This document shows, piece after piece, positions 1,711 to 40,382 of a DNA stretch of 40,382 bases. Under the pieces are notes generated by a model. The model had not been told where the DNA came from. It did no database searches and saw nothing but the letters and a program-made list of their open reading frames with translations. The position numbers and the translations under genes were made by a program. The stretch spans positions 1-40,382 of the IMG/VR virus record IMGVR_UViG_3300006803_002763, one strand, 5' to 3'. The DNA is from a virus. Positions within the stretch are counted from its first letter, which is position 1. Every line of letters starts with the position of its first letter.

Positions 1711-3636
1711 TCAATAATCCGTCTCGACGTAGACGCCGGAGCAGTCGTAGGCGACGGCGGCCGCCGTCGCGCCGTTATTCATGTAATTGCGCGGGCTCAG
1801 AAGCTGGGTGGCGGCGGGCATGTCACTGGTGACGGTAAACTCGGCGGCCGCGCCGCTGACCTCCTCGACCACCCGCACGCCGATGTCTGATCCGTTCGGG
1901 GCTGCTGCGATGTAGAGCGTCAGAACGTTGGTCAGGCTGTTGACCGGGAAGCTCGCGCCCAGATCGATCAGGCTCGGTGCACCGGTGCCATCGTTATGCA
2001 CCAGCTGCCAGTTGGTGTGGGTGCCGCGCTGGAAGCCGATCCCGATGCAGTTGGCCGTTGCGGCTAACGTCAGCGTGGTGGCCAGTGCCGCAGTCGACCC
2101 ATAGAGCCCGAAAAAGCCCATGCCGGTGGCCTGCAGCGCGGTCAGCGAGAGGCGGTTGACGTAGTTCCACCCGCCCAAGCCATCGGCATTGCCACGCCAG
2201 CAGACCCAGCCTGCGGAGCGTTCTTCGGCCACCGCGTCAGCCGTTGCTGCACTGGTCACGCGCCAACGGCGCATGCTGGTGGAGAGGTTGGTGGTCGCCA
2301 GCGTCGGTGTAGCCACGGTGCCGACTGCCGTGCGCGGCATGCCATTGGTGTTGACCGTTGTGCCGGTCGAGGGCGCCCAAGTCGCGATCCGGTTGACCCC
2401 GAAATGCGGTTGCAGAGGAAAGAACCGCCCCGAGGGCCGCTGCACATCCAGCCACCCGGCCCCTGCGCGGTCACGGGCATAAACGGCAAGCTTTCCCGCA
2501 GGCGGAGGGTCCGGGGCGGCGGGTAGGGCGGGGATCACCAATGGTTCGGGCAGTTCAACCCGGCCCGAGGTCCGGTCGATCCGGATCGCATCAAAGAAGG
2601 TCGATCCGTTCGGGCTGACCTTGAAACTGAAATCGTCGTTGCCGAGAAGGCCGATCAGCGCCCGCGCCGAAAACCCGGTCTTGAAGGCGAAGGCCGCATC
2701 ATTCCCGGCGGCGGCCTTGTTGACGGTGGCCTCGATCCCGGCACCGGCGTTGTTCAGCAGCACCGCAGGGGTATTCATCGACAAACGGTTGTAGCTGTCA
2801 GCGGTCGCCCCGCCGAGGCCCAGCAATTGCGCAGTGAGGTTTGCCTGGGGCATGCCGACCTGCGCCACGCTATTCGCGAAGGTGACTATGGGCGTGTTGA
2901 TCACCGTGGTGCCGCCTGCCCCCGCAATCGCGGACCCGACATTTACCACGGTCGTGGACCCACTCGCACCGCCAGTGCCGAGGTTCAAGGTTTTGGTGAC
3001 GCCGGTCGTCGTGGCTCCTGTGCCCATGCCGTAGGTGGCGGTTGTCGTCGCCGTGCCGATCGATGCGCTGGCCGCCGAGATTGTGACGGTGCCCGACACC
3101 GTCAGTGTGCCGGAGAAGGTCTTGTTGCCGCTGAACGTCTGGGTGCCAGCGAGGATCGCCAGTTCCGACGAGGTGTTCGGCAGCGTGAAGGTGCGGGTTG
3201 TCCCGGTGCTGATCCCCGACAGCGAGAATGTCGCCCGCTTTGTCGGATCGGCGGTGTTTACGAGGCTGAAGACGCTGTCAGGAACATCCACCGGTTCGCC
3301 AACCGGATCCCAGGCGCTGCCGTTCCAGACCAGAAACATCTGTTCTGCCGCGATCCATGCCAGCCAGCCCGGGCGCGGCACCAGCTGCATCCAGACGCCA
3401 TCGACCCAGAAGGCCACGTTCAAGTCCCAGCCAGCCCACAGACCTGTCGCCCCAGACGCCACAATATGCCGGTCGCCGTCGGTCGGGCTGGCAGATGGGG
3501 CGGTGCGCGTGCGGTCCAGCACTGACAGCTGCACCATGGCGTCCAGCAGGCGCAGCGCCTCGTTGTGGGTGACATGCTTTTGCGCCTGCGATGCCAGGAT
3601 ATAGGGCAGCAGGAGGTGGGTGGTTAAATCGGACAT
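1711..3636 (-). CDS. Tail fibre/appendage protein, DUF2793 N-terminus
   Basis: 641 residues. The first roughly 110 residues match DUF2793, found at the N-terminus of phage tail fibres and related rhizobial and rhodobacterial proteins (LLPYILASQAQKHVTHNEAL; LWAGWDLNVAFWVDGVWM). The middle (about 120-260) is a Gly/Thr/Ser-rich repetitive region suggestive of a beta-structured trimeric fibre shaft. The C-terminal 200 residues form an unassigned globular domain, probably for receptor binding. It lies directly downstream of the GTA-like host-specificity protein, where the receptor-binding fibre is expected. Confidence 0.8.
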   Translation of the reverse strand: MSDLTTHLLLPYILASQAQKHVTHNEALRLLDAMVQLSVLDRTRTAPSASPTDGDRHIVASGATGLWAGWDLNVAFWVDGVWMQLVPRPGWLAWIAAEQMFLVWNGSAWDPVGEPVDVPDSVFSLVNTADPTKRATFSLSGISTGTTRTFTLPNTSSELAILAGTQTFSGNKTFSGTLTVSGTVTISAASASIGTATTTATYGMGTGATTTGVTKTLNLGTGGASGSTTVVNVGSAIAGAGGTTVINTPIVTFANSVAQVGMPQANLTAQLLGLGGATADSYNRLSMNTPAVLLNNAGAGIEATVNKAAAGNDAAFAFKTGFSARALIGLLGNDDFSFKVSPNGSTFFDAIRIDRTSGRVELPEPLVIPALPAAPDPPPAGKLAVYARDRAGAGWLDVQRPSGRFFPLQPHFGVNRIATWAPSTGTTVNTNGMPRTAVGTVATPTLATTNLSTSMRRWRVTSAATADAVAEERSAGWVCWRGNADGLGGWNYVNRLSLTALQATGMGFFGLYGSTAALATTLTLAATANCIGIGFQRGTHTNWQLVHNDGTGAPSLIDLGASFPVNSLTNVLTLYIAAAPNGSDIGVRVVEEVSGAAAEFTVTSDMPAATQLLSPRNYMNNGATAAAVAYDCSGVYVETDY

Positions 3637-24794: not shown

Positions 24795-26054
24795 TTATGC
24801 CGAGAGTCTCTTTGCCTTCAGCTCGGCGAAGGTTTCACCAGTTTCCGTCAGCACCGCTTTGGCCCCGGTGAACTGCTGCCAGCGCTCAACGGCGACATCG
24901 ACATAGGCCGGGTTCAACTCGATCCCGAAGCAGACCCTCCCGGTGGTTTCTGCAGCGATCAGCGTGGTGCCCGATCCCATGAAGGGTTCGAACACAGCCT
25001 GGCCCGGGCTGGAGTTGTTCAGGATCGGTCGGCGCATGCATTCGACCGGCTTCTGGGTGCCGTGGACGGTCGCCGCGTCCTGATCCTTGCCGGAGATGAG
25101 CCAGAGGGTCGTCTGCTTGCGGTCCCCGGCCCAGTGGCCTTTGCCGGATTTCTTGACGGCATACCAGCAGGGTTCATGCTGCCAGTGGTAATCGCCCCGA
25201 CTGAGAACGAGGCGGTCCTTGGCCCAGATGATCTGCGACCGGACGGCAAAACCTGCCGCGACAAGGCTCTCGGCCACAGTGGAGGCGTGCAGCGCGCCGT
25301 GCCAGACATAGGCCACGTCTCCGGGGAACAGCGCCCACGCTTCGCGCCAGTCGGCACGGTCATCATTCAGCACTTTGCCGGTGCGCTTGGTCTTGGCCGC
25401 CCCCGCCTGGTTGCGCCAGGACGGGTCATATTGCACGCCGTAAGGCGGGTCGGTCACCATCAGCAGTGGCTTTACATCGCCGAGCAATCGCCCGACCACA
25501 TCGGCAGCAGTGCTGTCGCCGCAGATCAGCCGGTGTGACCCGAGCTGCCAGAGATCGCCTGGCACCGACACCGGCGTGACCGGCGGTTCGGGAATGTCAT
25601 CCTCGCCCTCGACGGCACCACCCTCGACCTGATCGGGATCGCGCAGCAGGGCATCCAGATCTTCGTCGGTAATCCCCAGCAGGGACAGGTCGAAATCCTC
25701 GGCCAACAGCCCCGCGATCTCGTCACGCAACATTGCCTCGTCCCATTCGCCAAGCTCGGTCAGTTTATTGTCGGCGATGCGGTAAGCCCGGCGTTCCGCC
25801 TCGTCGAGATGGCTGAGCCGGATCACCGGCACATCCTTCAGGCCCAGCATTGCCGCCGCCAGCACCCGGCCGTGCCCCGCAATCAGCTCTCCGTCGTCGG
25901 CCACCATGCAGGGCACGGTCCAGCCGAACTTGGCCATGCTGGCAGCGATCTTCGCCACCTGATCGGTGCCGTGGATCTTGGCATTACGGGCATAGGGCCG
26001 CAGCCGGTCGAGCGGCCAAGTCTCGATCTGGCTCGGCGCAAACACGAGGTCCAT
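24795..26054 (-). CDS. ParB-like nuclease/DNA methyltransferase fusion (N4/N6 adenine or cytosine)
   Basis: 419 residues. Residues 1-150 are a ParB/sulfiredoxin-fold domain (GELIAGHGRVLAAAMLGLKD; RRAYRIADNKLTELGEWD). Residues 165-400 are a beta-class amino-methyltransferase: catalytic TDPPYGVQYD (DPPY), then target region, then the SAM site FEPFMGSGTTLIAAETTGRV. This fusion is common in alphaproteobacterial phages and acts on adenine N6 or cytosine N4, probably to protect phage DNA or as an orphan methylase. No partner nuclease adjoins it. Its orientation opposes the neighbouring genes. A short plus-strand reading frame (24662-24871) overlaps its 3' end but looks non-coding. Confidence 0.88.
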   Translation of the reverse strand: MDLVFAPSQIETWPLDRLRPYARNAKIHGTDQVAKIAASMAKFGWTVPCMVADDGELIAGHGRVLAAAMLGLKDVPVIRLSHLDEAERRAYRIADNKLTELGEWDEAMLRDEIAGLLAEDFDLSLLGITDEDLDALLRDPDQVEGGAVEGEDDIPEPPVTPVSVPGDLWQLGSHRLICGDSTAADVVGRLLGDVKPLLMVTDPPYGVQYDPSWRNQAGAAKTKRTGKVLNDDRADWREAWALFPGDVAYVWHGALHASTVAESLVAAGFAVRSQIIWAKDRLVLSRGDYHWQHEPCWYAVKKSGKGHWAGDRKQTTLWLISGKDQDAATVHGTQKPVECMRRPILNNSSPGQAVFEPFMGSGTTLIAAETTGRVCFGIELNPAYVDVAVERWQQFTGAKAVLTETGETFAELKAKRLSA

Positions 26055-26148
26055 GGGGCAGCTCTCATTCGGGGCAGGCGGACATGCCGATGCGCGCGGG
26101 CAACATGGCCAGCGACAGGATCGGGGTCCGCGATGTGGGGGAAACGAA

Positions 26149-26178
26149 AGCGCCCGAGAGGGCTATCCTCCGGGCGCT
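26149..26178. repeat. Stem-loop inverted repeat (possible terminator, minus direction)
   Basis: AGCGCCCG, a bulged A, GAGG, loop GCTAT, CCTC and CGGGCGCT form a 12-bp stem with one bulge. Read on the minus strand it is followed by TTTCGTTT, weakly terminator-like. It lies upstream of the methylase start (26054), where it could block read-through into that gene or attenuate it. Confidence 0.5.
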
Positions 26179-26262
26179 ATTCTTCGATGATTAATAGGTA
26201 GGTCAAGGGGGGCAGCGTTGTCAAATGAAAAATATACGTGGATTCAAAGGCTTCTCGGCAGG

Positions 26263-26422
26263 TGGCTTCCGCTGGCTGGCTTCCGGCGTGGTGGCTTCCG
26301 CAAACTGGATTCCTTGGATTCCGCAAAAGAATCCAGCAAGCCAAGATCGAGATTCCGCAAGCCTTTGATAATGAGTCGCTTTTCCCAAAATTATTCGGCA
26401 GGTGGATTCCGGGTGGCTTCCC
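26263..26422 (+). repeat. Cluster of TGGMTTCCG repeats
   Basis: Eight near-identical copies of TGG(C/A)TTCCG lie within 160 bases, starting at 26263, 26277, 26292, 26306, 26315, 26348, 26403 and 26414 (three are imperfect). An inverted copy (GAATCCAGCAAGCC) lies near 26329. No gene is convincingly encoded here. The array could bind a regulator or replication protein, or be a tandem-repeat relic. It occupies the boundary between the phage methylase gene and the defence operon. Confidence 0.55.
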
Positions 26423-26863
26423 CGGTGAAAGTGCCTGTCGCTAGCGAAATGCTGCGCTGCGCCCCCCCGCATACATTCGGGGCCGGGGAGGAACCATGCC
26501 AAGGGGGCGCTTGTTGCCTAGGGCGCGCATCAGAGTCTCGTACTGTCCGCTGCTAACCACATGTGCAGGCGCGGTGCAAAGACCTGTAACACCGATCAGC
26601 CGTTGAGCTGAAGACAAGCCTATCGCTGTGGCCGACGTCTAACCACAGGGATTGCGTTAGCGTTACCAGCGTGAAAATTCTTACATGCCACTTTTCACCT
26701 CTCAACCACTTATGCACAGAAAACAGTTCATTTACGTTCATGGCGCGAAGTTTTGAGCCTGGACATTTCCGACCAGAGCGCACAACATCCACCCTTAGTG
26801 TCATGGGCAGCTGTGACCACAAGAATATGGGTTTTGCGCACTTGCGCTGAAGGAGCGATACCA
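26423..26863 (+). promoter_or_regulatory. Leader region of the defence operon, no gene seen
   Basis: 440 bases without a supported gene, more AT-rich than the phage core from about 26570. The operon promoter must lie here. AATATG near 26824 is a possible -10, but I see no convincing -35. A CCTGG site near 26758 could matter if the Dcm-like enzyme regulates its own gene, as EcoRII-type methyltransferases can. Confidence 0.35.
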
Positions 26864-27937
26864 ATGACTGCCAGCGGCCCCGCTTTCCGTTTTATCGACC
26901 TTTTCGCCGGTATTGGCGGGTTGAGGATCGGGTTCGAACGCTCCGGTGGGCAATGTGTGTTCACGAGTGAGTGGAACAAGTTTTCGCAGGAAACGTATCG
27001 CGCAAATTTCGAGGACGACCATCCAATCAATGGCGACATCACCGCGATCGATGAGGCCGATATTCCTGCGCATGACGTCTTGCTTGCGGGGTTCCCCTGT
27101 CAGCCTTTCTCCATCGCAGGAGTCAGCAAGAAGAACTCTCTTGGACGGGCGCATGGTTTCGCGGATGAAACGCAGGGCACACTGTTTTTCGATGTTGTCA
27201 GGATCCTGCGCTACCATCGTCCGAAGGCATTTCTGCTAGAGAATGTCAAAAATCTGCTGTCCCATGACAAAGGAAATACGTTCAGGGTGATCCTCCATGC
27301 CCTTGATGAGCTAGGCTATGAGGTCGATCACAAGGTCATCGACGCGCGAAGCTGGGTTCCACAGCATCGCGAGCGGATTTTCATCACCGGCTTCCGTCGG
27401 GACGCTCCCACGCGGTTTTCACTGGATGACGTTGTCGTACCGCCCGGACCGAACCCTCGTCTGTCCAGTGTCCTTCACCCCGGAGATGGGACGGAGATTG
27501 CCGAGGATCCGTATACGTGTGGGCCGTTGGCGGCTGTGGCCCCTAAATACACGCTCACACCGAACCTGTGGAAGTATCTCCAAGCGTATGCGGCAAAGCA
27601 TAAAGCTGCTGGCAATGGTTTCGGGTTCGGACTCTGCGGTCCGGATAGCGTTGCCAGGACTTTGAGTGCGCGCTACTACAAGGATGGCAGTGAGATCCTG
27701 ATCGCGCAGGGCGACGGCATTCCACGGCGTCTAACGCCAAGGGAATGTGCAAGGCTGATGGGGTTTGACCAGCCAGGCTCCAATCGTCCTTGGAAGATTA
27801 ACGTTTCAGATACTCAGGCGTATCGGCAATTTGGAAATGCAGTTGCAGCACCTGTCGCGATCGCAATTGCCGAGGCCATGGCCCCGTGGATCATCAACAC
27901 GGTCGCCCTTCGGTCGAGGAGAAGCATCATTGCCTGA
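26864..27937 (+). CDS. Dcm-like DNA (cytosine-5)-methyltransferase
   Basis: 357 residues from ATG 26864, with AAGGAG eight bases upstream; the open frame extends 5' without a ribosome site. All C5-methyltransferase motifs are present: [10 protein letters not shown] (I), [11 protein letters not shown] with catalytic Cys79 (IV), LLENVKNL (VI), QHRERIF (VIII) and YRQFGNAV (X). The similarity to E. coli Dcm is strong and continuous ([53 protein letters not shown]), including the region that normally determines specificity. The expected product is 5-methylcytosine at CCWGG, an inference from similarity. It is the first gene of a six-gene overlapping operon, and its stop overlaps the Vsr start. Confidence 0.9.
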
Positions 27938-28409
27938 AAAGACGCCGATGACGCGGTCCGAAATGATGTCGCGGATCGGAACCAAGAATACCGAACCAGA
28001 ACTGAAGATCAGGCGTGGCCTTCATAGGCGTGGATTTCGCTACCGTCTCCACCGTAACGATCTGCCGGGGAAACCTGACATTGTACTTCCGCGGCACAAT
28101 GTGGTGATCTTGGTCCATGGATGCTTCTGGCACGGGCACCAAGGGTGTCGGTACTTCAGGGTTCCCCGGTCGAACCCCGAATTCTGGGAGACCAAGATTC
28201 AGAAGAACCGGGACCGGGACGCAAGACAGGTTGACCAGCTTGCTGACCAAGGTTGGCGGGTCTCGGTGATCTGGGAGTGTGCTACCCGAAACTATCCGAC
28301 CGAAGAACTGGCCGATAAAATCGCAGGATGGATATCCGGCAACGAAAAAAGAGATGAGATCGCCGAACATACTGGCGCATCCACAGAAATGGAACCGGAG
28401 ACCACATGA
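27930..28409 (+). CDS. vsr: Very short patch repair endonuclease (Vsr)
   Basis: 159 residues from TTG 27930, preceded by GAGGAG at eight bases; the next in-frame ATG (27948) has only a weak site. Vsr nicks 5' of the T in T:G mismatches formed when 5-methylcytosine deaminates in the methylase target. Key features are intact: [20 protein letters not shown], the catalytic Asp in PGKPDIVL, zinc/catalytic [11 protein letters not shown] and WECATR, and [13 protein letters not shown]. The pairing with a Dcm-like gene parallels E. coli dcm-vsr. It overlaps the methylase end by eight bases and the ATPase start by ATGA. The C-terminal 20 residues are an acidic extension. Confidence 0.92.
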
Positions 28410-30037
28410 GCGACCTTATCAACGAACCAGATGCCTCCCGTCTCATTTTCGGGCTGCGCGATACCGGCTACAACGTAAAGACCGCAGCGGCCGATATCGT
28501 GGACAACTCGATTGCGGCGAGGGCTAGCCATGTAAACATCCTCATTGTTCTTCATGAAACCGGACGCAAGGTTGTCTATTTCGGCGACGATGGCGAAGGC
28601 ATGGATGCGGCCGGAGTGCACACGGCGATGCGCTATGGAGCTCCAGTTCGAGAGAATCCAGAGAGTCTTGGCAAATTCGGCCTCGGCCTGAAAACCGCCT
28701 CAAGCTCCGTCTGCAAAAAATTCTCACTCGTGTCCCGGAAGGCGCCGGATCAGCCTTTGGCAAAATTGTCTTGGGATCTCGAACATGTGGAACGTGTCAA
28801 GAAATGGGAGATGCTCAGCGAACCCGTCTCGACCGATGAGGAAGAGATGTTCGAGGAACTATGTGGCGAAACGGGGACGCTTGTTGTCTGGGAAAACTGC
28901 GATCGGATTCTTTCCAAGGATTTTGAGCCTGGAAGCACTAAGGAACAGGCCGCCATCAAACGTCTCGCAGATACCCTTGGCCGACATCTTTCTCTGATCT
29001 TCCATCGGTTCACCGACAAGAACGATGCTCGAGAGCGGAACGTGGAGATTATGGTGAACGACAGTCCAGTCGTCCCTTGGAATCCGTTCTATCCAAAACG
29101 CTCCGATCAGGTCCTGCCCGAGAAAAAGCAGAAGCTCGTCATCGAGATGCCTGACGGGAGTGAGGAAACGGCGTCCATCCGTGCTTGGATCCTCCCACAT
29201 CGTCGGGACATGTCCAAGGACGAGGAACGTGAATTCGCGAGGATTTCCAACCGCGCACAGGGCTTCTATGTTTATCGCGAGGGTCGCTTGATACAGGACG
29301 GCGGCTGGATGGACGTCTTTGGAACACCCGAACCGCACACATCACTGCTGAGGATCGAGTTTGATTTCGGTCATGACTTGGACGATGCGTTCAGGGTGGA
29401 CGTGAAGAAATCTCGCATACTTTTCCATCCCGATCTTGAAGATGGGCTGAAGGCCCTGCTGCAGCCGATCTACCGCGAGGCCGGGAACAGATATCGCCGC
29501 ACCAACCGTTCAGCTACCGCCGGAACCAATACGGTTGACCACAGCAGTTCGAACAAGAATATCGCATCGACTCCAAATGCCGCGACCGCGACCGTTAACT
29601 CTGCAGATGCTACGGACCAGACGGCAGAGGTGACCAATAACCTCGGCGCTAAGATCCGCATCAAGGCGCCTGTTCAGTCGAACGTAGAGGCCGGACATGT
29701 CCACGTTGAAGCAGTGGAAACCATTCACAATGGTGACCTCTGGCAACCGGCGTTCCGAAGTGCGACGGAAGACGGTTTCGTTCCGTCCGTCCTCCTCAAC
29801 AAGCATCATGATTTCTACCAGAAAATCTACCAGCGCGCCGCTGGCAACGGGTTTGCGGTCGAAGGGATGGACCTGCTCCTCTGGGCATTCGCAGTCGCCG
29901 AACAGAACAACACCAACGCAGAACTCGAGCCGATCTTCGAGGACATCCGCTCCGAGATTTCAGGAAATCTCCGAAAGCTTCTTCGGAACCTTCCTGATCC
30001 GGAACCGGAAGAGCTGTCTGAGGATGACGACCAGTAA
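28406..30037 (+). CDS. MORC-like GHKL ATPase
   Basis: 543 residues. The N-terminal 130 residues form a Bergerat-fold ATPase of the HATPase_c_3/MORC-MutL type: N box AAADIVDNS (Asp30, Asn34), G1 DDGEGMD (61-67), G2 GKFGLGLKTAS (89-99). A transducer-like S5 domain follows to about residue 365. A Ser/Thr/Asn-rich linker (about 365-415) leads to a C-terminal helical domain (about 430-530) of unknown fold with an acidic tail. MORC ATPases clamp and compact DNA on ATP-driven dimerisation. Prokaryotic MORC/paraMORC genes occur in R-M neighbourhoods with helicases and nucleases, matching this context. It overlaps Vsr (ATGA) and the HNH gene (one base). Confidence 0.88.
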   Translation: MSDLINEPDASRLIFGLRDTGYNVKTAAADIVDNSIAARASHVNILIVLHETGRKVVYFGDDGEGMDAAGVHTAMRYGAPVRENPESLGKFGLGLKTASSSVCKKFSLVSRKAPDQPLAKLSWDLEHVERVKKWEMLSEPVSTDEEEMFEELCGETGTLVVWENCDRILSKDFEPGSTKEQAAIKRLADTLGRHLSLIFHRFTDKNDARERNVEIMVNDSPVVPWNPFYPKRSDQVLPEKKQKLVIEMPDGSEETASIRAWILPHRRDMSKDEEREFARISNRAQGFYVYREGRLIQDGGWMDVFGTPEPHTSLLRIEFDFGHDLDDAFRVDVKKSRILFHPDLEDGLKALLQPIYREAGNRYRRTNRSATAGTNTVDHSSSNKNIASTPNAATATVNSADATDQTAEVTNNLGAKIRIKAPVQSNVEAGHVHVEAVETIHNGDLWQPAFRSATEDGFVPSVLLNKHHDFYQKIYQRAAGNGFAVEGMDLLLWAFAVAEQNNTNAELEPIFEDIRSEISGNLRKLLRNLPDPEPEELSEDDDQ

Positions 30038-30861
30038 TGATCGCGGCAAAGAGACAGCTCATTGCAAATGCACTGCTCACAGGCACTGGTGCCGAGATCG
30101 CATTGGCAGTCGATACGGACGGTCTCCGCTCCGGCATGCGGCTGTGGTTTGCCGACTTGGATGAACGCCACGGGCCCGTGGCCGAGCTCAAACCCCATGG
30201 GCTGAAGTCGCATCGCGTGCGGCTGACGTTCGGAAACTTTTCGGGCGCCGTGATCCGCCAGATTGCACAGGCACCCGTCGAGGATCAGCAACTGGCAAGA
30301 GCGCTGGTATCGTCGATTGGCCCGGAGCATGAGGTGTCGATCCATGGGCAGGACTTGGCGGACTGGACTGTCGCCAGTGGGAGCTTTCAACTTCAGGCAG
30401 TCGTAAGGCATGTCGAGGGTCCAGATACGGACGAAGCCATTCGGCGCACATGTCAGGAGGTCATCGTTCCGGTCATGGCGGCGATGGCCGAATTGATTGG
30501 ATACGACATACTTGAGACCGAAACAGCCGAAGCTATGCCCGCCTACGAAGGCGCGGTGCATCCTGCCAACGTGGCACGCCGGGAACGAAATCCGCGAAAC
30601 CGGCTGCTTTGTATCCGGTTACATGGCGACAAATGCGCTGTTTGCGGCATCGATCCTCGCCAAGTTTACGGTGCTGGGATCGGGATAGTGGAAGTGCATC
30701 ATCTTGAACCCCTCGCCAATCTTGCGGAACCGCGCCCATATGATCCGGCGTGTGATCTGATCCCGCTATGCCCGAACTGTCATCGGGCAGTTCACACCAG
30801 ACGTCCGATTCCCCTGGATATTTCCGAACTCCGTCGGTGCATGGAGGACGCAGGTGCCTGA
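30037..30861 (+). CDS. HNH endonuclease with N-terminal accessory domain
   Basis: 274 residues. The C-terminal 90 residues are a zinc-stabilised HNH nuclease: CAVCG (Cys200, Cys203), EVHHLEPL (His221-His222), LCPNCHRAVH (Cys245, Asn247, Cys248, His249, His253). The N-terminal 170 residues are an unassigned alpha/beta region with RSGMRLWFADLDERHGPVAE, not recognisable as a known recognition domain. The active site is complete, so this is the best candidate for the cleaving subunit of the system. It is coupled to the ATPase (TAATG) upstream and to the helicase (eight-base overlap) downstream. Confidence 0.87.
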   Translation: MIAAKRQLIANALLTGTGAEIALAVDTDGLRSGMRLWFADLDERHGPVAELKPHGLKSHRVRLTFGNFSGAVIRQIAQAPVEDQQLARALVSSIGPEHEVSIHGQDLADWTVASGSFQLQAVVRHVEGPDTDEAIRRTCQEVIVPVMAAMAELIGYDILETETAEAMPAYEGAVHPANVARRERNPRNRLLCIRLHGDKCAVCGIDPRQVYGAGIGIVEVHHLEPLANLAEPRPYDPACDLIPLCPNCHRAVHTRRPIPLDISELRRCMEDAGA

Positions 30862-32665
30862 TTTCGCCGCCATGCCAATTACATTTGAAGGAGTGCGCGA
30901 ACGGGTACCCGCCGGTCACACCTTGTCCGAACGGTTGCTGGAACCTTTAATTCTGCTGGATCGGAATGGTGACCGGCTCTCGGCCAGCCTTGGCGGTATG
31001 AGGATGATCCGCGGACAGAAAAATGAACTCAGGGCTCCGACCGACGATCACGCATGGGTTGTCGACGGCACCGTTTTGCGGCCGCTTCCAAAAGATGCAC
31101 CGAAGCTCTTCCGGATTATGCTGGGGGATGTGGACCCGAAAGATCTTCCTTTCAGCGTGGCGATCAGGCTGCTGCGAACGGTCGATGAGCGGATGTCCAC
31201 GGCTGCTTCCACAAGTGTCCTGATTGCAGGACGGGATGCTGCAGACCAGGAGACCAACCCGGTTGCCCCGAGCGGTCTCCGGGCCGACCTATTTCCCTAC
31301 CAAGCCCGCGGCGTCCAGTGGATGTGGGACACTGTCGGAAGGACCGGGGGGGTCATTCTGGCGGACGAGATGGGATTGGGAAAAACGATCCAGATCATAG
31401 CGCTGCTCCTCATGGACATGCCTGACCAATCAAGCCCTGCGCTCATAGTCTGTCCAACAAGTCTGATCGCCAACTGGGTCCGGGAGATTGAACGATTTGG
31501 CCCCAGTCTCGAAACGAACGTGCATCGCGGAAGTCATCGAACGGGCGTCTCCAGTGGCCTCCAAAGGTCGCGGGTCGTGATCACTACCTATGACACGATG
31601 GTAAACGATATCTCCATCTTCTCCGGCCTGGAATGGTCGTGGGTAATCTGCGACGAGGCTCAGGCTATCAAGAACCCTTCCTCCAACCGCCGTCAGGCCA
31701 TCGTCACCATCCCTCGAAAGCGCTCCATTCCCATGACGGGAACTCCCGTAGAGAATACCCTGCTTGATCTGTGGTCGCTTACCGACTTTGCGATACCGGG
31801 GCTTCTCGGCACCCAGAGCGAGTTCGAGGCTGAGTTCCCGGACAGTGTCGAAGCGGGTCAGAGGCTCGGTGGCCTGACCGACCCAATCATATTGAAACGG
31901 CGTGTTGCCGATGTCGCTTCAGATCTGCCAGAACGGATTGACATCGACATACCGCTTGAGCTCGATGATCGTCTCATCGATCATTATCGTGAAGTTCGGG
32001 ATACAACACTCGCTAAATATCCTGTTGCCGGGGCACTTGTCGCGACGCTTCAGCTTCAACTCCTTTGCGCACATCCATGGCTACGGCAAAACTCCGACGC
32101 TGAAGAAGAAGCCGACATCATCCCCGCGTCCAGCATGCCGCTCGTTACGCCAAAAATGGAACGCATTGCGGCACTGCTCCGCGAGGCTTTTGCGAATGGC
32201 CGAAAGGTCATCGTGTTCGCGTTGTTCAACCGTATTGGAGACCTTCTGAAGGAGGTCTGTGCCGACATGCCCGGTGTCCACTGGGGAGCCATTAACGGGT
32301 CGACGCCTCAAGAGGACCGGCAGCCAATCGTTGACATATTTTCCGAAAATGTTGGGGCCGCATGTCTCGTCCTCAATCCAAAGGCAGCCGGTGCCGGTCT
32401 CAATATCACGGCCGCCACTGTTGTGATCCATTTCACACCGGTCTGGAACCCAGCTGTCGAGGCACAGGCGAGCGCCCGTGCCCACCGCCGCGGGCAAACG
32501 CAACCGGTCACCGTATATCGCCTGTTTTACAAAGATACTGTGGAGGAAATTATGATCGAACGATCTGCGTGGAAGAGTGATCTTGCAAATGAGACGGTTC
32601 CTGTGTCCACACGCGATGCGGACGACTTGAAGCGGGCGCTGTCCATCCTTCCGGTGAAAACATGA
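30854..32665 (+). CDS. SWI2/SNF2-family DEAD-box helicase/translocase
   Basis: 603 residues from GTG 30854 (GGAGG six bases upstream). The first 140 residues are a specific N-terminal region. The SNF2 core follows: LFPYQARGVQWMW (Q-like motif), LADEMGLGKTIQ (motif I, Lys177), ICDEAQAIKN (motif II), MTGTPVENTLLDLWSL (motif III), NPKAAGAGLNITAA (motif V) and ARAHRRGQTQPVTVYRL (motif VI). All catalytic residues are present. SNF2 proteins translocate on double-stranded DNA; in R-M and DISARM-like systems they supply the motor for target scanning or degradation. It is the motor of this operon and overlaps the EcoRII-N gene by ATGA. Confidence 0.92.
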   Translation: MPDFAAMPITFEGVRERVPAGHTLSERLLEPLILLDRNGDRLSASLGGMRMIRGQKNELRAPTDDHAWVVDGTVLRPLPKDAPKLFRIMLGDVDPKDLPFSVAIRLLRTVDERMSTAASTSVLIAGRDAADQETNPVAPSGLRADLFPYQARGVQWMWDTVGRTGGVILADEMGLGKTIQIIALLLMDMPDQSSPALIVCPTSLIANWVREIERFGPSLETNVHRGSHRTGVSSGLQRSRVVITTYDTMVNDISIFSGLEWSWVICDEAQAIKNPSSNRRQAIVTIPRKRSIPMTGTPVENTLLDLWSLTDFAIPGLLGTQSEFEAEFPDSVEAGQRLGGLTDPIILKRRVADVASDLPERIDIDIPLELDDRLIDHYREVRDTTLAKYPVAGALVATLQLQLLCAHPWLRQNSDAEEEADIIPASSMPLVTPKMERIAALLREAFANGRKVIVFALFNRIGDLLKEVCADMPGVHWGAINGSTPQEDRQPIVDIFSENVGAACLVLNPKAAGAGLNITAATVVIHFTPVWNPAVEAQASARAHRRGQTQPVTVYRLFYKDTVEEIMIERSAWKSDLANETVPVSTRDADDLKRALSILPVKT

Positions 32666-33093
32666 CCGGTGATGTGTTCAGCAAAGTACTGAGCGCCAAT
32701 GATGTAGGAACGACCGGTGGACATCAGGGCGGCATCTTGATTCCCAAGGGTGAAACGCAGCTACTTGCAATCCTGCCCGTACTTGATCCAGAAATCAAAA
32801 ACCCGGATGCGTGGCTGGATTGTGTGGATGATGCCGGTCAGGCTCTCCGTTTCAGGTTTGTCTATTACAACAACAAGTTACACGACGAAAATGGGACACG
32901 AAACGAATTCCGGGTGACGCATATGACCAAATGGTTCCGTGACACCGGCGCTCGTGAGGGCGATGAGTTCAGGATTTCCCTGATGTCTGACAAGATGCGC
33001 TATTCAATCGGAATAATTCGTCCCGATCCTGAGGACCAGAACGAAGAAGATGGCGTTCGGATCCGCCTGTCCGGATGGCGGCGAGTCCATTGA
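32662..33093 (+). CDS. Stand-alone EcoRII-N (effector DNA-binding) domain protein
   Basis: 143 residues covering only the N-terminal effector-binding domain of restriction enzyme EcoRII, a B3-like pseudobarrel that reads CCWGG. Matching blocks are LSANDVGTTGGHQGG (EcoRII has LSANDTGATGGHQ), IP at 27-28, FVYYNNKL (68-72 region; EcoRII IYYNSR) and TRNEFRVTHMTKW (79-91; EcoRII TRNEKRITRW). The PD-(D/E)XK catalytic half of EcoRII is absent and the protein ends soon after the domain. It therefore probably provides sequence recognition to the other subunits, in partnership with a Dcm-like methylase of the same expected target. It is the last gene of the operon and ends ten bases from the convergent AIPR gene. 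Confidence 0.85.
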   Translation: MTGDVFSKVLSANDVGTTGGHQGGILIPKGETQLLAILPVLDPEIKNPDAWLDCVDDAGQALRFRFVYYNNKLHDENGTRNEFRVTHMTKWFRDTGAREGDEFRISLMSDKMRYSIGIIRPDPEDQNEEDGVRIRLSGWRRVH

Positions 33094-33102
33094 CCAGATG
33101 GA

Positions 33103-35217
33103 TCAATGGGGCCGTGAGATCGCCGATATCTTGATCCGGGGCGAATCTGCCTCGTCAACATAACCTTCCTCACGCGCGCGCAACATGATCTGTTCAGCAA
33201 TCACTGACTGCCGCCCCGACGGAATGCGGCCAGGCAACAGGCTGCAGGTCCTGAGGATGCCGTCCTCTGTCGGGCTGAATTTCCGGTTCGCCCGACCCCA
33301 ATCCCTGAGCCTAGACCAAAATGGTGCCCCGATTGCAATCACGTTTTGCTGGGCTGCTATTTCTGCGTCCATCGACGTATTCCGCCGGTCATCGCGCTGC
33401 GTGGTTCGTGCTTCTTCGGGGGCTACAACACAATCCTTGAAATCATCTCCATACTCGACGACTGCGCGCTCAATTGCAGCCCAACAGGCTTGCTTCTTCC
33501 CCCATTCCGTAATGTTGTTTACACCCGCCTCTGGGGCGGTAATGACCGTCGTGGCCACTTCGGCGGCCATAAGAAGAGTGTCATTCAGAGCCCTCGGAAC
33601 GGATTGTGTCCGCCAGACAGAATCCAAATCCAGCAACTTTTCGGCTTCATGGGTGTCTGATACAACCTTGGCGATCGTATAAGTGATGATGTTGGCCCGG
33701 TAACCGCCAGGATACCACGGTTGTTTCGGCACGACTTTTTCCAGATGGCGAAAGACGATCAGTTTGGCCACAAGTCGCTTGAACCACGTCTCATCAAATT
33801 TACTATCGCTGCGTGACCATTCACTTCCGATTGTCTGTGCGAACGTCCCGAAGTTCTTCTGGGCACCCTTGCTCACGGTATCAGGCTGCATCCGGAAGCT
33901 CATCTCGACTTTGGCTAGATCGGTCTTGACGAAATATTGGGACTTCGGGTTCTCGATATCGAACCGCCGACGCTCTGCAGGCGATTTTTTGGCCCGCTCC
34001 ACCAGATACTGCCCTCTTGCCCGCTCGTAGAACCACTTCGTTTCCTTGTTCGTGCCCTCCGCGGCGGGTGCCAAGACGCGGCGTGAAAACTCTTCCATCC
34101 GCATGTGAAAGGGGTGGTTCGAAAAGAAATCGGCAGCACTGACCTTGTTCTGGCTGTTGGCGTATTTTGAAATGAACGGCACAATCTCTTCGGAGACCTC
34201 GTCAGGCACGACTGTAAGCTTCAACTGGACATGGACATTATCGAGCGTTTCCGGCGATGCGGACAGGGCTGCATGCAGTGACGCCGTTGTCTGTCCCCCG
34301 TTCACGATCTGCAGATTGGTGGCCCTGACGATCTGCATTCCGTTCTCGGACCTCACCACCTCGACCTCGTCTGCTGTGGCGGACAATCCGTTGTTGTAGC
34401 TGAAGAACATCTCCGGTTCATCCTTGATGGTGTCCCGAATGCCCCTGTTGACTGCACCGCGGGCCTGCAAAAAGCTCCGCACATTCGACTCGAGAAGCCG
34501 CGCGCCCCATTTGTCATAGATCTTTGCTAGCTGAGTCCCACCCATTACGATCAGGTAGCTGTCGAGCCTGTCACCACTCCTAGACGCGGCCAGTGCAGGA
34601 AGGGCCTCGCCAAAGTCATCCCGGAAATTGACGATGATCTTCTCTCGGGCATGACCCGAGGTCTCGAAGCGGTGAAATCTTGAAAGATCCCAGACGTTAT
34701 AGGTGACAGGTACATCGGCTATCTTTCCAGCAAGGACGGCGTCCGTCCGGGCACTATAGATGGCGTTGGTAATCAGGATGAGTTTCACCTTGGTGACGGA
34801 TGACCAAGCGGATGTGATCAAGGATGCTGCACCTGCTTCTGATGATCCCTCCATCAGATCGGAACGGAAAGCAGCGCGGCGTGATGCTGCGACAAAGTTG
34901 ATCAGGCTGCCAAAGGACTTTTTCGCGTCGGCAGCATTGATTTTCACCGGAGTGGCATCGGGATGAAAGTCGCTGACGATCACGCTCAGAACGCCTTCGG
35001 ATTCCCGCGGGTCGCCGCCAATTGCGTCGATCCGGACCGGCTTTCCAGAATTCCTGTCCGAGAAGTCGACCCAGTCGGAGGTAACGATCTCGCCCTCCAT
35101 TTCTAGGCGGTTGGCCATTCGCTCAAAAAAGGCCTCCTTGACGTCTAGAGAGCTTTCTTCGGCGACTGCATCAAGTTCAGCCATGAGACCAGCGTGGTAT
35201 TCAGTTATTTCTTCCAC
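33103..35217 (-). CDS. AIPR-family abortive infection phage resistance protein
   Basis: 704 residues from GTG 35217 (AGGGA eight bases upstream). The AIPR domain is centred on residues 250-400: MFFSYNNGLSATADEVEV, NLQIVNGGQTTASLHAALS, SKYANSQNKVSAADFFSNHP. Many AIPR proteins are found beside R-M genes, and some resemble nucleases or Argonaute-associated partners; the mechanism is not established. The gene faces the defence operon, with the two stops ten bases apart. It has lower GC than the phage core and belongs to the same island. Whether it is part of the system or a separate module is unknown. Confidence 0.88.
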   Translation of the reverse strand: MEEITEYHAGLMAELDAVAEESSLDVKEAFFERMANRLEMEGEIVTSDWVDFSDRNSGKPVRIDAIGGDPRESEGVLSVIVSDFHPDATPVKINAADAKKSFGSLINFVAASRRAAFRSDLMEGSSEAGAASLITSAWSSVTKVKLILITNAIYSARTDAVLAGKIADVPVTYNVWDLSRFHRFETSGHAREKIIVNFRDDFGEALPALAASRSGDRLDSYLIVMGGTQLAKIYDKWGARLLESNVRSFLQARGAVNRGIRDTIKDEPEMFFSYNNGLSATADEVEVVRSENGMQIVRATNLQIVNGGQTTASLHAALSASPETLDNVHVQLKLTVVPDEVSEEIVPFISKYANSQNKVSAADFFSNHPFHMRMEEFSRRVLAPAAEGTNKETKWFYERARGQYLVERAKKSPAERRRFDIENPKSQYFVKTDLAKVEMSFRMQPDTVSKGAQKNFGTFAQTIGSEWSRSDSKFDETWFKRLVAKLIVFRHLEKVVPKQPWYPGGYRANIITYTIAKVVSDTHEAEKLLDLDSVWRTQSVPRALNDTLLMAAEVATTVITAPEAGVNNITEWGKKQACWAAIERAVVEYGDDFKDCVVAPEEARTTQRDDRRNTSMDAEIAAQQNVIAIGAPFWSRLRDWGRANRKFSPTEDGILRTCSLLPGRIPSGRQSVIAEQIMLRAREEGYVDEADSPRIKISAISRPH

Positions 35218-35479
35218 CGCATTATTCCCTGACTTGAATTCAAAAGCTCATTTACTCGGGAGGGCCCACTTGACCGACTGATTTTCTATATAATTGAAAT
35301 CTGTAGCCCATCGGGTGTTGCCATTGCAAATGCTCGTTGGTCGCAATCCTATGCCACGGGCCCGGGACGGGTTTCATTGCCAGTAGAGTCCTTCAACCTT
35401 GGACCGGCAGTCGAAATGTCCGGCGGGCCTCGGTTCAATCTGCAGCAAAAGTTTAGTACTCGCAATCTTAACCAACCTA
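35218..35479. other. AT-rich intergenic gap at right edge of the defence cargo
   Basis: 262 bases without a supported gene. The part near 35281-35300 is AT-rich (TTTTCTATATAATTGAAATC) and is a plausible promoter area for the AIPR gene. It also marks the return from lower-GC cargo to GC-rich phage genes, so a recombination junction may lie here. Confidence 0.35.
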
Positions 35480-36130
35480 TCACTGCCAAGGCCGCACTCT
35501 AGGCATCGCCCCCATCACCTCGATATCCCGAAGCATGCGGCCCACCGCCAATCCATCGCGAATCCAGTCCAGCGCCTGCCACCAGTCATCATAGCCGCGA
35601 CGAGCGGACACAATCTGCTCCGGGTGCGGCCGCCAGGTGACCGGACAGGCCAAAACCTCGACCGTTCGCCATTTGCCGCGGGTCAGCACGCGTTCAGTGC
35701 CGACGACTATGGTGGTCGCCCGCTCGCCATGCTGATTGCGCTTGGTATCGACCGGCACGCAGCGCGGCACCACGCCGGGCATCCAGTCGGGCGTTAGCCC
35801 AGCGCGCGCCAGTTCGGCCACGCGGATCGCCATGCGGATGCCGCCGAGGCTAGCCGGCATTCCGGCAACGGTGGCGGCGATCACCTCGGCATCTGGGTGG
35901 GTGTAACTGCCCATCTTGTGCTGGCCGCCGTCAACCTTACAGCCCAGTGCTGCGCGTTGCAGCAGGACATATTCGAGGCCAAAGCCGAAGCCTTCTTCCG
36001 ATACGTTCTTCGGAAGCGGCAGCTCCAGTTGAGCCTTCTCGATCCGAAACGCCCATTCAAGTGCCGCCTGCACGCCCAGAGCACGTTTTGTGCGTCCGCC
36101 GCGATTGATAATCGATCTCTGCAAGGTCAT
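35480..36130 (-). CDS. Conserved-looking prophage protein, unknown function (last gene of the early operon)
   Basis: 216 residues from ATG 36130, which overlaps the stop of the replication gene by ATGA; the longer frame has no ribosome site. I recognise no domain. Features are a basic start (MTLQRSIINRGGRTKRALGVQ), helical ALEWAFRIEKAQLEL, GFGFGLEYVLLQRAALGCKVD, and a C-terminal WRPHPEQIVSARRGYDDWW region. The last part resembles small phage regulators that recur at the end of early operons in rhodobacterial prophages, so an antiterminator-like or late-activator role is possible but speculative. Confidence 0.55.
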   Translation of the reverse strand: MTLQRSIINRGGRTKRALGVQAALEWAFRIEKAQLELPLPKNVSEEGFGFGLEYVLLQRAALGCKVDGGQHKMGSYTHPDAEVIAATVAGMPASLGGIRMAIRVAELARAGLTPDWMPGVVPRCVPVDTKRNQHGERATTIVVGTERVLTRGKWRTVEVLACPVTWRPHPEQIVSARRGYDDWWQALDWIRDGLAVGRMLRDIEVMGAMPRVRPWQ

Positions 36131-37143
36131 AGCACACCCCGCATCCGGAGGCGTTCCGTGGTGACGAGCCCGCGTTCCAGCATCAATCCGCACATAGCGG
36201 CGCTGATCATGTTCGGGGGCAGGTATTCGTCTGAGTTCACCTTGGCCGCATAGAATGCCGCCGTTTCATCGGGGCTGGGCCGTGGCTTGCTTTGGGCCTT
36301 GCGGCTGCGCTTGGCTTTCCCAGCACTGGCCGCCGCCTGCGCATCGCGCTGTGCAGCGCGTTCCATGAACCGGTCGAGGGCTTTGGGCCCATCGGGCGGA
36401 TTGGGATGATCGCACCGGGTCTCGGTGGCGGTCTCGATGATCCGACCCTCGGACAGCCCGAGGTCATCGATCCATTGACGCACATGGGTTCTAGCTGGCG
36501 CGCCCTGCCACCAGGCGGGCAGGCTGGCATTTGCGGCGAAGCCCAGCGCATTCAGAAGTTTTGCAAAGAACCGATCAAAATCGGCCTCGCGCGCAGCCGC
36601 GTCCTCCTCCTCCTTTACTGATTTACTTAGTGGTTCTCTTACAAGGTTAGTGTCCGGATTTCGGACACGGCTTTGGCCCTTTTCCGGACACGGGTCGGGG
36701 CAAAATCCGGACACGGCTTCGGGGTGGCTCCCGTGTCCGAAATCCGGACACGGATCAGTCGCGTCAGGCTCATCGAGACCGCACGTGCCCGCGTCATCAG
36801 TGGTTTCCAGATCGTCTGCGTACCCGTGTCCGATTTCCGGACCCGGCCCCACATCAGCCGGTGTGAAGCCGCGCTCGAACCCCAGGATGTAGCGGGTCGG
36901 CTGCTGTCGCTTGGTCACTGGATCAATCCGTGGCACACGGCGCAACAGCCCCCCGGCCTCCAACTGGCGCAGGTGGTCATTCAGCGTCGAGCGGCTGATT
37001 TCGCAATCGTGGGCCAGCCGAACCTGCGAGGGAAAGCAACCGTAATCCGGGTTGAACCGGTCGCAGAGATGCCAGAGCACGATCTTGGTTGTGGGCTTCA
37101 ACCCGCGCTGCTTGATGGCCCAGTTGGTGGCGTCATGGCTCAT
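36127..37143 (-). CDS. Helix-turn-helix replication initiator-like protein (O-like)
   Basis: 338 residues from ATG 37143 (ATGA overlap with the VRR-NUC gene); about 66 extra residues in the open frame upstream are not used. Residues 1-80 are a winged helix of the RepA/O type (MSHDATNWAIKQRGLKPTTK; DYGCFPSQVRLAHDCEISRS; LNDHLRQLEAGGLLRRVPR). A Gly/Asp/Pro-rich linker (about 95-165) is encoded by the iteron cluster. The C-terminal 150 residues form a helical domain typical of such proteins. It resembles lambda O in organisation: an N-terminal origin-binding domain with the origin in its own gene. A C-terminal helicase-recruiting role is inferred. Confidence 0.7.
   Translation of the reverse strand: MSHDATNWAIKQRGLKPTTKIVLWHLCDRFNPDYGCFPSQVRLAHDCEISRSTLNDHLRQLEAGGLLRRVPRIDPVTKRQQPTRYILGFERGFTPADVGPGPEIGHGYADDLETTDDAGTCGLDEPDATDPCPDFGHGSHPEAVSGFCPDPCPEKGQSRVRNPDTNLVREPLSKSVKEEEDAAAREADFDRFFAKLLNALGFAANASLPAWWQGAPARTHVRQWIDDLGLSEGRIIETATETRCDHPNPPDGPKALDRFMERAAQRDAQAAASAGKAKRSRKAQSKPRPSPDETAAFYAAKVNSDEYLPPNMISAAMCGLMLERGLVTTERLRMRGVL
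36650..36846 (-). repeat. Iteron cluster, probable phage replication origin
   Basis: Eight copies of a TCCGGACACGG-type sequence or its complement lie within 200 bases inside the replication gene. Direct copies lie at 36661-36670 (shorter), 36683-36693, 36706-36716, 36743-36753 and 36836-36846 (one mismatch). Inverted copies lie at 36650-36658, 36731-36740 and 36824-36833. Three inverted pairs are separated by only 2-4 bases, giving palindromes such as GTGTCCGAAATCCGGACAC. Iterons inside an O-like gene are the lambda ori plan. Confidence 0.7.
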
Positions 37144-37535
37144 GGCGCGGACCTCCGTACAGGGGGCGCAATGCGCGTCGTAAAACCGTGATCGGCCAGC
37201 GCGCCCAGCGCCTCGTCGAGGCTGCGCACCAGCGCCCAGCCGAAGCCCTGCGCCAGCACCGCATCGCGGAAGGCCTCCTGTGTCGGGCGCAGGCGTCCTT
37301 TCGGGGCTTTCAGCTCGAGAAACAGCACGCGGCCATCGCACAGGATCACCAGATCGGCAAAGCCCGCATGGACGCCCATGCCGACCAGGATCGCCTGACG
37401 CCTTGCACCGCGGGGGCCTGGCTCGGTCACCTCATTGGCGCAGTGATGGATGATTGCCGTGCGGGGCAGGGCGAGGCGCAGGGCCTGCACGAGAGATCGC
37501 TGCAGGTCAGCTTCGGGTGTGCCGCGGCGCGTCAT
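37140..37535 (-). CDS. VRR-NUC domain nuclease
   Basis: 131 residues that are almost entirely a VRR-NUC (PD-(D/E)XK-type) domain: GVHAGFADLVILCDGRVLFL, then ELKAPKGRLRPTQEAFRD. Catalytic residues are Asp of GFADL, Glu of LELKAP and Lys of ELKAPKG, with the Q of PTQ. Phage VRR-NUC proteins are small structure-specific nucleases used in replication or recombination intermediates; Holliday-junction resolution is a possible role. It is coupled to the O-like gene downstream and to the 93-residue gene upstream (four-base overlaps). Confidence 0.85.
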   Translation of the reverse strand: MTRRGTPEADLQRSLVQALRLALPRTAIIHHCANEVTEPGPRGARRQAILVGMGVHAGFADLVILCDGRVLFLELKAPKGRLRPTQEAFRDAVLAQGFGWALVRSLDEALGALADHGFTTRIAPPVRRSAP

Positions 37536-39109: not shown

Positions 39110-39143
39110 GAGGCGCAGAAACTCATGCCAACTTCTGCGCCTC
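39110..39143. terminator. Inverted repeat between convergent genes (bidirectional terminator-like)
   Basis: GAGGCGCAGAA, a 12-base loop and TTCTGCGCCTC form a perfect 11-bp stem. It spans the integrase stop (39123) and follows the plus-strand gene end (39095) by 14 bases. There is no T run, so termination is probable rather than certain. Confidence 0.5.
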
Positions 39144-40382
39144 GTCCGCGTCATGCACCAGTTTCGGCCGAGGCCTGAAGGCGATGGCCACGGCATCGAC
39201 GCCCGCGCGCAGCGGTGAGTCCATGAGATGGGCATAGCGCTGGGTCGTCTGCATCTGGCTATGGCCCAAGAGCTTGCCGATCATTTCCAGCGATGCGCCG
39301 CCGCTGACCAGCAGGGACGCAAAGGTGTGTCGCAGATCGTGGATGCGTACGTCCGGGATGCCAACCTGCCTCTGGATATTGGACCAGAAGCGTCTGATTT
39401 CCTTTACCGGCTGCCCCGGCACATCACCCGGAAACAGCAATTGGCATCCCCGCGGTACCAGCAGCTGGCGCTGTCGCACGATGGCTGCCGCTTCATCAGA
39501 AATCGGCAGGCGGTGAACCTTGCGCTGCTTGGTCATACTTGCGGGCTTTGACCAACTCAGATGCTCCAGGTTGAAATGTTCAAACCGCGCCTGACGCACC
39601 TCGCCAACGCGCGCACCCGTCAACATGCACATCCGGATAATGTCGGCCGCGCGGCGATCATCGGCCGCGTCCAGCGCCTCGGCCAGTTTGCGGATTTCCT
39701 CATGGCACAAAAAACGTTCGCGCGGGTTTTCGATCCGGCGGCGGAAACTCGAAGCCGGATTATCCTCGCGCCACCCCCAACCCACGGCGTAGGTGAACAT
39801 CTTGCGCAGGACCTCGCCGGTCCGGTTGGCGCGCACCGGGGTCGGCTTGGCCCCCTGCAGTTTCCGCGCCCGGTTATTAGGCTTGGCCTTTGACGGGCGG
39901 GCACGGCCAGCAGCGACCTTGTTCAGCAGTTTTTCCACATCATAGGGCGTGATCTCCGTTACCAGCCGGTTGCCCCATTCCGGTGCCACAAGTTTCGCCA
40001 GCATCGATTTTTGGTCTGAGGCGTTGGTTGGGGAAAGGTGCGGCAGGTGAACTTCGGTGTAGCGCTCGATCAGATCTTTGAACCTTGGGGCCTCTCGCCC
40101 GCTTTCCTTCTGGCCCAATGGATCGCCACCAGCGTCGATCTCACGTCGCAATTCCTTCGCCCGGTCGCGGGCGGACGTCGTCGACCATTCGGGCCAGCGC
40201 CCGATGGTCATCCGCCGTTGCCGCCCTGCATGGCGATAGTCGATCGTGAATGCCCGATTCCCCGACCGGTATATGCAGACTGCAAAGCCCCGCACATCCG
40301 TGTCAAAAATCTGGTAATCACGCCCCGCCGCCGGTTCGGCATCGCGAACGCATTTCTCATTCAATCGCAATCGGTTGACCAT
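39123..40382 (-). CDS. int: Tyrosine integrase (phage integrase family, DUF4102 N-terminus)
   Basis: At least 419 residues; the start ATG coincides with the window edge, so a longer start cannot be excluded. Order: DUF4102-type arm domain (about 1-90, YQIFDTDVRGFAVCIYRSGN), core-binding domain (about 100-200) and catalytic domain (about 215-400). Catalytic residues are visible: Arg in LTGARVGEVRQ, Lys in SMTKQRKVHRLP, HxxR in IHDLRHTFASLL, His in GHSQMQTTQ and the nucleophile Tyr in QRYAHLM. It mediates site-specific integration and, with an excisionase, excision. Integrases of this family usually recombine into a tRNA or tmRNA gene; the attachment site lies outside or at the window edge. Confidence 0.93.
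   Translation of the reverse strand: MVNRLRLNEKCVRDAEPAAGRDYQIFDTDVRGFAVCIYRSGNRAFTIDYRHAGRQRRMTIGRWPEWSTTSARDRAKELRREIDAGGDPLGQKESGREAPRFKDLIERYTEVHLPHLSPTNASDQKSMLAKLVAPEWGNRLVTEITPYDVEKLLNKVAAGRARPSKAKPNNRARKLQGAKPTPVRANRTGEVLRKMFTYAVGWGWREDNPASSFRRRIENPRERFLCHEEIRKLAEALDAADDRRAADIIRMCMLTGARVGEVRQARFEHFNLEHLSWSKPASMTKQRKVHRLPISDEAAAIVRQRQLLVPRGCQLLFPGDVPGQPVKEIRRFWSNIQRQVGIPDVRIHDLRHTFASLLVSGGASLEMIGKLLGHSQMQTTQRYAHLMDSPLRAGVDAVAIAFRPRPKLVHDADEAQKLA

Follow-up and report, generated by a model that had tools for sequence, protein, structure and literature searches.

We identified a cluster of iterons and an adjoining AT-rich tract at 36614-36846 of a 40,382-nt virus record with siphophage-type head and tail genes (the whole stretch is called the window below). 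This feature very probably is the phage's replication origin, embedded in its own O-like initiator gene, and we put the probability of this reading at roughly 0.87. The evidence comes from the arrangement and clustering of the repeats, from constraint acting on the DNA rather than on the encoded protein, and from co-evolution of the repeats with the recognition helix of the initiator across relatives gathered from viral contigs and bacterial genomes.

The initiator gene and its product

The gene and the parts of its 338-residue product (P0001) are as follows.

36127..37143, minus strand: O-like replication initiator gene (open reading frame and translation, 338 aa)
36868..37143, minus strand: winged-helix DNA-binding domain, residues 1-92 (AF2 pLDDT 86-95 over residues 1-90)
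36955..36993, minus strand: recognition helix, residues 51-63, with SRSTLNDH at S50-H57 (helix 51-63 in the AF2 model; covariation peak at residues 49-58)
36628..36852, minus strand: disordered linker, residues 98-172 (AF2 pLDDT <50)
36142..36615, minus strand: helical C-terminal part, residues 177-334 (AF2 pLDDT mostly 79-93)

A sequence-only reading of the window had proposed an O-like replication gene, and profile searches agree. P0001 matches PHROG 345, "replication initiation O-like", at 3.9e-30 over residues 1-230 (the N-terminal and linker part), and lambda O matches the same family (5.2e-17). P0001 falls outside TIGR01610 (phage_O_Nterm), with no match at 0.01 compared with 5.4e-39 for the lambda O control. 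Against Pfam it matched PF13730 HTH_36 (4.3e-13), and PF06970 RepA_N was not among its matches at 0.001. In the AF2 model the wing strands span residues 67-73 and 80-87; a Foldseek search of the model against the PDB returned nothing at E <= 0.001. The C-terminal part differs in sequence and length among subfamilies. The virus appears to be a phage of alphaproteobacteria and probably infects one of the Rhodobacterales, since a Yoonia metagenome-assembled genome (L033) encodes a protein 99% identical to P0001 over the alignment.

The iteron array

Eight half-sites of CCGTGTCCG type were found, at 36648(-), 36660(+), 36683(+), 36706(+), 36731(-), 36743(+), 36824(-) and 36836(+). Six of the eight carry the exact CCGTGTCCG on one strand, and the degenerate arms are the outermost two, 36648 (TCCGGACACTA) and 36836 (TCCGGACCCGG). 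Together the half-sites form five 23-bp iterons at gene nt 298-496, between the DNA-binding and C-terminal parts. Three of these are palindromes with 9-bp arms and a 5-bp spacer, and two have one good arm each.

36824..36846, minus strand (gene nt 298-320): iteron I, palindrome CCGGGTCCGGAAATCGGACACGG, 16 of 23 positions self-complementary
36731..36753, minus strand (gene nt 391-413): iteron II, palindrome CCGTGTCCGGATTTCGGACACGG, 20 of 23 positions self-complementary
36694..36716, minus strand (gene nt 428-450): iteron III, one good arm
36671..36693, minus strand (gene nt 451-473): iteron IV, one good arm
36648..36670, minus strand (gene nt 474-496): iteron V, palindrome CCGTGTCCGAAATCCGGACACTA, 16 of 23 positions self-complementary
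36614..36649, minus strand: AT-rich tract, putative DNA-unwinding element (69% AT against a gene mean of 37%)

The earlier reading had counted at least eight such elements at 36650-36846, several of them paired as palindromes, within the linker of a winged-helix protein. Both the number and the pairing stand, with the interval now 36648-36846, and the DNA in question falls in the stretch for residues 98-172, which AF2 predicts to be disordered.

The clustering of half-sites is not due to chance. Seven sites with at most one mismatch lie within about 200 bp, compared with a maximum of three in any 210 bp of the rest of the window and never more than three in 200 simulated windows. The most frequent 8-mer occurs six times in the gene, a count that none of 200 synonymous codon shuffles reached (mean 2.5, maximum 4). 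In 136 of 173 relatives, likewise, the observed repeat count was reached by none of 40 shuffles.

Across the family, iterons III-V hold their 23-bp spacing and lie almost equally far from the conserved NLVREP codons in each gene, and the distal iterons I and II of the window stand apart from this tandem. Two relatives have linkers that are shortened in frame. One (L096) has lost the distal iterons and keeps three exact copies of the top word, and the other (L103) lacks 93 nt, including iteron II; the proximal iterons and the AT tract are retained in both despite the distal losses. A short relative in Vibrio phage H8 (L244, gene 3001-3468) has four linker copies at an in-frame spacing of 24 nt, read as ENGTLNRP repeats, in contrast to the 23-nt spacing in the window.

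The AT-rich tract

No other 36 nt of the gene are as rich in AT as the tract at 36614-36649 (gene nt 495-530), which starts where iteron V ends. The tract is part of the feature, although it lies outside the interval that the sequence-only reading had marked. The AT maximum directly follows the last iteron in 136 of 157 family genes. As a control, lambda O has its AT maximum at nt 440-475, with iteron 4 ending at nt 433. The lambda-like placement suggested earlier is thus seen along the whole gene: a winged helix, iterons at about 23-bp spacing, the gene's AT maximum and a C-terminal part.

Constraint on the linker at the DNA level

Since 23 nt does not divide into whole codons, the iteron word is read in all three frames at this spacing. 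It encodes PCP, VSG and RVR in these frames, and FGH or PDT in inverse orientation; in other subfamilies the peptides switch all together with the word (PCLK, VSQ, RVS). Synonymous codons were compared among 60 non-redundant relatives of the window's class. The excess of synonymous identity was 0.483 inside the iterons and 0.205 elsewhere (p 2.7e-11), with 0.282 in the remainder of the linker region (p 4e-5) and 0.464 in the AT-rich stretch at gene nt 496-540.

It had been suggested that the DNA sites shape the linker, and a look at conservation of the repeats at synonymous positions in relatives had been proposed as a check. The synonymous positions are indeed frozen. The first suggestion is supported by the occurrence of the word in three frames and both orientations, as well as by copies that change together with the recognition helix. 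The gene illustrates how DNA sites, taking precedence in each of the three reading frames, can dictate the sequence of a disordered protein linker.

Covariation of recognition helix and iterons

In a first set of relatives, 31 recognition-helix octamers fell into eight word classes with zero exceptions. Since these word models had been picked after seeing the data, the analysis was redone with blind words, read off de novo at a set offset from the conserved N-[LPS]-V codons. The blind-word set comprised 171 genes and 37 helix octamers, with one 7-mer word for each. Among 59 non-redundant genes, pairs were then compared in which the rest of the domain was 40-80% identical. All 32 pairs that shared a helix also shared the word (mean rest identity 0.72), as did 21% of the pairs with different helices (mean 0.61), the two sets being matched in identity range and not in mean.

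A partial Mantel test gave r 0.672 for word against helix given the rest of the domain (0 of 1000 permutations) and 0.058 for word against the rest given the helix (187 of 1000), where the permutation addresses the non-independence of gene pairs only partly. When an 8-residue window was slid over the domain, the association peaked at starts 49-51 (partial r 0.59-0.61), in the recognition helix, with a lower shoulder at 63-79 (0.19-0.41), in the wing; over residues 1-36 it stayed close to zero. A tree of the genes requires the word to change 13 times (minimum 7). Tree-based independent contrasts were all concordant, but those on supported branches were too few for significance.

Something close to a natural substitution is seen in a pair of relatives (L022 and L023). 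Six of the first 96 residues differ between them, including a single helix position where S is replaced by H (residue 51 as numbered in these proteins). The five forward iteron cores all change from TCTCA to TCGCA between the two, and most inverse arms do likewise. This is not a clean single change, because the surrounding linker also differs by 36 nt.

Several further observations were made on the iterons of relatives. Five genes of the TCTCA class (L011, L017, L158, L159 and L162) hold one or two half-sites of the window's GTGTCCG class in their distal iterons, as though their specificity were in the midst of changing. The iterons of some subfamilies (L019, L020, L021, L173, L216 and L242) contain GAGTC or GACTC, and those of the window do not. 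GANTC is the CcrM methylation site of Alphaproteobacteria, and methylation could modulate initiator binding in the subfamilies that bear it. Initiator genes residing in the same genome share an iteron class in Gemmobacter caeruleus (L045/L052/L058), Yoonia vestfoldensis (L034/L039/L043) and Loktanella sp. PT4BL (L085/L093/L096/L107), a pattern that may be biased by a relative search that favored close kin of the query. Because the class is shared within a genome, the origins of these co-resident initiators may cross-react.

A proposed recognition code and its limits

In outline, and incompletely, the comparisons suggest which residues would read which bases. At one base, G appears to go with R51 and C with V51; an acidic residue 56 appears to pair with CCG and R56 with TC, and H50 and R56 together seem to turn TCTC into TCGC. 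The word rules were fixed once the first set had been analyzed and then applied to 49 further genes, with 22 right predictions, 11 wrong ones and 16 genes whose helices no rule covered. The code therefore looks real in outline and strong, but incomplete, as the frozen rules were right in only 22 of the 33 covered genes, or in 24 when L386/L387 are counted as right for their CTCCG core.

The failures have several forms. L386 and L387 missed only because the pattern was drawn too narrowly: their CTCCG core is the expected one, and a flanking base differs. In L288, L473, L509 and L512, residue 53 (T versus S or G) also matters. Two rules clash in L404, where P50 and R56 are both present, and L408 and L516-L518 have no recognizable iteron array. 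A further rule, by which CTCCG goes with an unmatched residue 51, holds clearly in L228, L242, L386/L387 and L405 and is ambiguous in L390/L396, where both words are present.

More tentatively, these observations could be read jointly as a natural, largely readable helix-iteron code in which the five to nine iterons within a gene switch in concert and origin specificity diversifies rapidly among phages that share hosts. We consider this wider reading possible and somewhat doubtful; co-resident prophages, satellites or superinfection pressure would perhaps drive such diversification. The natural series of helix-site pairs makes initiator specificity testable by single substitutions. No earlier description of the helix-iteron code or of this family's origin was found in open-access papers, which is weak evidence because the literature covered was open-access only.

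Proposed mechanism and alternative explanations

The protein very likely binds the iterons, as indicated by the helix-iteron covariation and a code that is strong though incomplete. That replication starts at the array we infer from lambda and from plasmids of the pSK41/pPR9 type. Each 23-bp iteron would be bound by the winged-helix domain (residues 1-92), which probably acts as a dimer, and the recognition helix (S50-H57) would read the GTGTCCG core. Filling of the tandem iterons III-V, aided by the more distant I and II, would give rise to a nucleoprotein complex, and the AT-rich tract beside iteron V would melt under the resulting strain. The helical C-terminal part may then recruit components of the host's replication machinery (helicase or primase).

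The sites could also be truly bound by the protein but act as operators, with the early operon regulating itself. The fold of P0001 resembles MarR/SlyA-type regulators, and the covariation goes no further than linking helix to site. However, the sites lie about 300-500 nt inside the initiator gene and no near match to the half-site (at most one mismatch) precedes it. The constraint extends into the AT-rich tract, which would be needless for a repressor, and the PHROG relatives are annotated as replication initiators. On this evidence we regard an operator array as improbable.

A slightly lower probability still is assigned to an array that is bound but serves a different DNA transaction, for example plasmid-like partition, incompatibility or the control of copy number, replication being initiated at another place. 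Plasmid iterons mediate handcuffing and incompatibility, and the separation of iterons I and II from III-V would suit such a role. Against it, the iterons adjoin an AT tract as in lambda and no partition gene lies beside the array, the ParB-like domain protein at 24795-26054 being fused to a methyltransferase. There is next to no chance that the repeats are a protein feature, namely a Pro/Cys peptide motif selected in the linker. PCP(D/E)..GHG peptides do recur there, but the spacing puts copies in all three frames, where they yield unrelated tripeptides; half-sites occur in inverse orientation as well, synonymous codons are frozen, and the linker is predicted to be disordered. An origin embedded in the initiator gene is the reading that we retain.

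Genomic surroundings

Three genes near the initiator gene are listed here.

35483..36133, minus strand: downstream gene at the position that P has in lambda; it overlaps the end of the initiator gene (PHROG 9306)
37140..37535, minus strand: upstream VRR-NUC-like nuclease gene with a 4-nt overlap (Pfam VRR_NUC 1.6e-4, just under the cutoff; PHROG 824, 93 and 5702)
39123-40382: integrase

No lambda P-like helicase loader was recognized downstream, where the overlapping gene gave a profile match to PHROG 9306. A fold was sought for its product with AF2, and the model (pLDDT 41.6) was unusable. In a number of relatives (L018-L021, L030, L031, L193-L211 and L216) the downstream overlapping gene, as judged from reading the sequence and not from a profile search, resembles a NusG N-terminal domain (WYCLRVMTGREFAVEKLL) and not PHROG 9306. 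GC skew across the window gave no clear origin signal. GC content drops to about 0.55 at 26000-36000, which is likely a region of defense cargo; it holds a SNF2-like helicase gene (30854-32665, plus strand, recognized from sequence motifs) and an AIPR abortive-infection protein gene (33103-35217, minus strand, Pfam 8.7e-102).

Comparison with known systems

Origins embedded in initiator genes are a known kind. In lambda the origin, with its iterons and AT-rich tract, sits within the O gene (PMC7466680, PMC3349717). As in lambda O/ori-lambda and the Stx phages P27 and 933W, the gene described here has an N-terminal DNA-binding domain and mid-gene iterons at 20-24-bp spacing (PMC7466680, PMC3349717, PMC6022878). 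It also shares with lambda an AT-rich tract directly after the last iteron and a C-terminal partner domain. Unlike lambda O, P0001 lies outside TIGR01610, uses another word and has no recognizable P gene downstream, and its 23-bp units have 9-bp arms with a 5-bp spacer and number five, two of them set apart. It has long been known that O-type specificity differs among lambdoid phages (Furth and Yates 1978, as cited in PMC6022878).

A second likeness is to RepA_N initiators such as pSK41 Rep, in which the Rep boxes and origin lie inside rep and the central linker is encoded by the origin (PMC5703833). P0001 has in common with them sites within the initiator gene and a linker that is probably origin-encoded, and its winged-helix N-terminal domain may have a fold like theirs. 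It differs in the missing PF06970 match, in belonging to an alphaproteobacterial phage and in an unrelated iteron word. By VIA-align, the winged helix scored Z 9.0 to 4pt7 and 8.1 to 5kbj (a Rep-DNA complex), at 23% identity, values near 9 being common among the winged helices listed. Both structures are of staphylococcal plasmid initiators. The hybrid Rep of pPR9, likened here by description, has a PF13730 N-terminal domain in common with P0001; this domain and the origin region were swapped as a module, giving a functional mini-replicon (PMC5703833). In contrast to the window's phage, pPR9 is a plasmid of a Gram-positive.

Among phage homologues, that of RcBaka is homologous along its full length (39.5%) and has iterons in the same place with another word (CGACTCCG) and the helix SVSSLNDH; that of vB_LagS-V1 covers the N-terminal half only, again with iterons in the same place. 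Labrenzia has yet another word (GTGTCTCAA) and the helix SRATLNRH. In the passages covered, the Rhodobacter capsulatus phage paper gives the homologous gene no replication role, and the record calls this gene only a helix-turn-helix protein. The RcBaka and vB_LagS-V1 homologues are annotated without any replication role as well. By the comparison made here, origins can be located in hundreds of phages and prophages of Rhodobacterales and relatives whose initiators now carry only the name helix-turn-helix protein.
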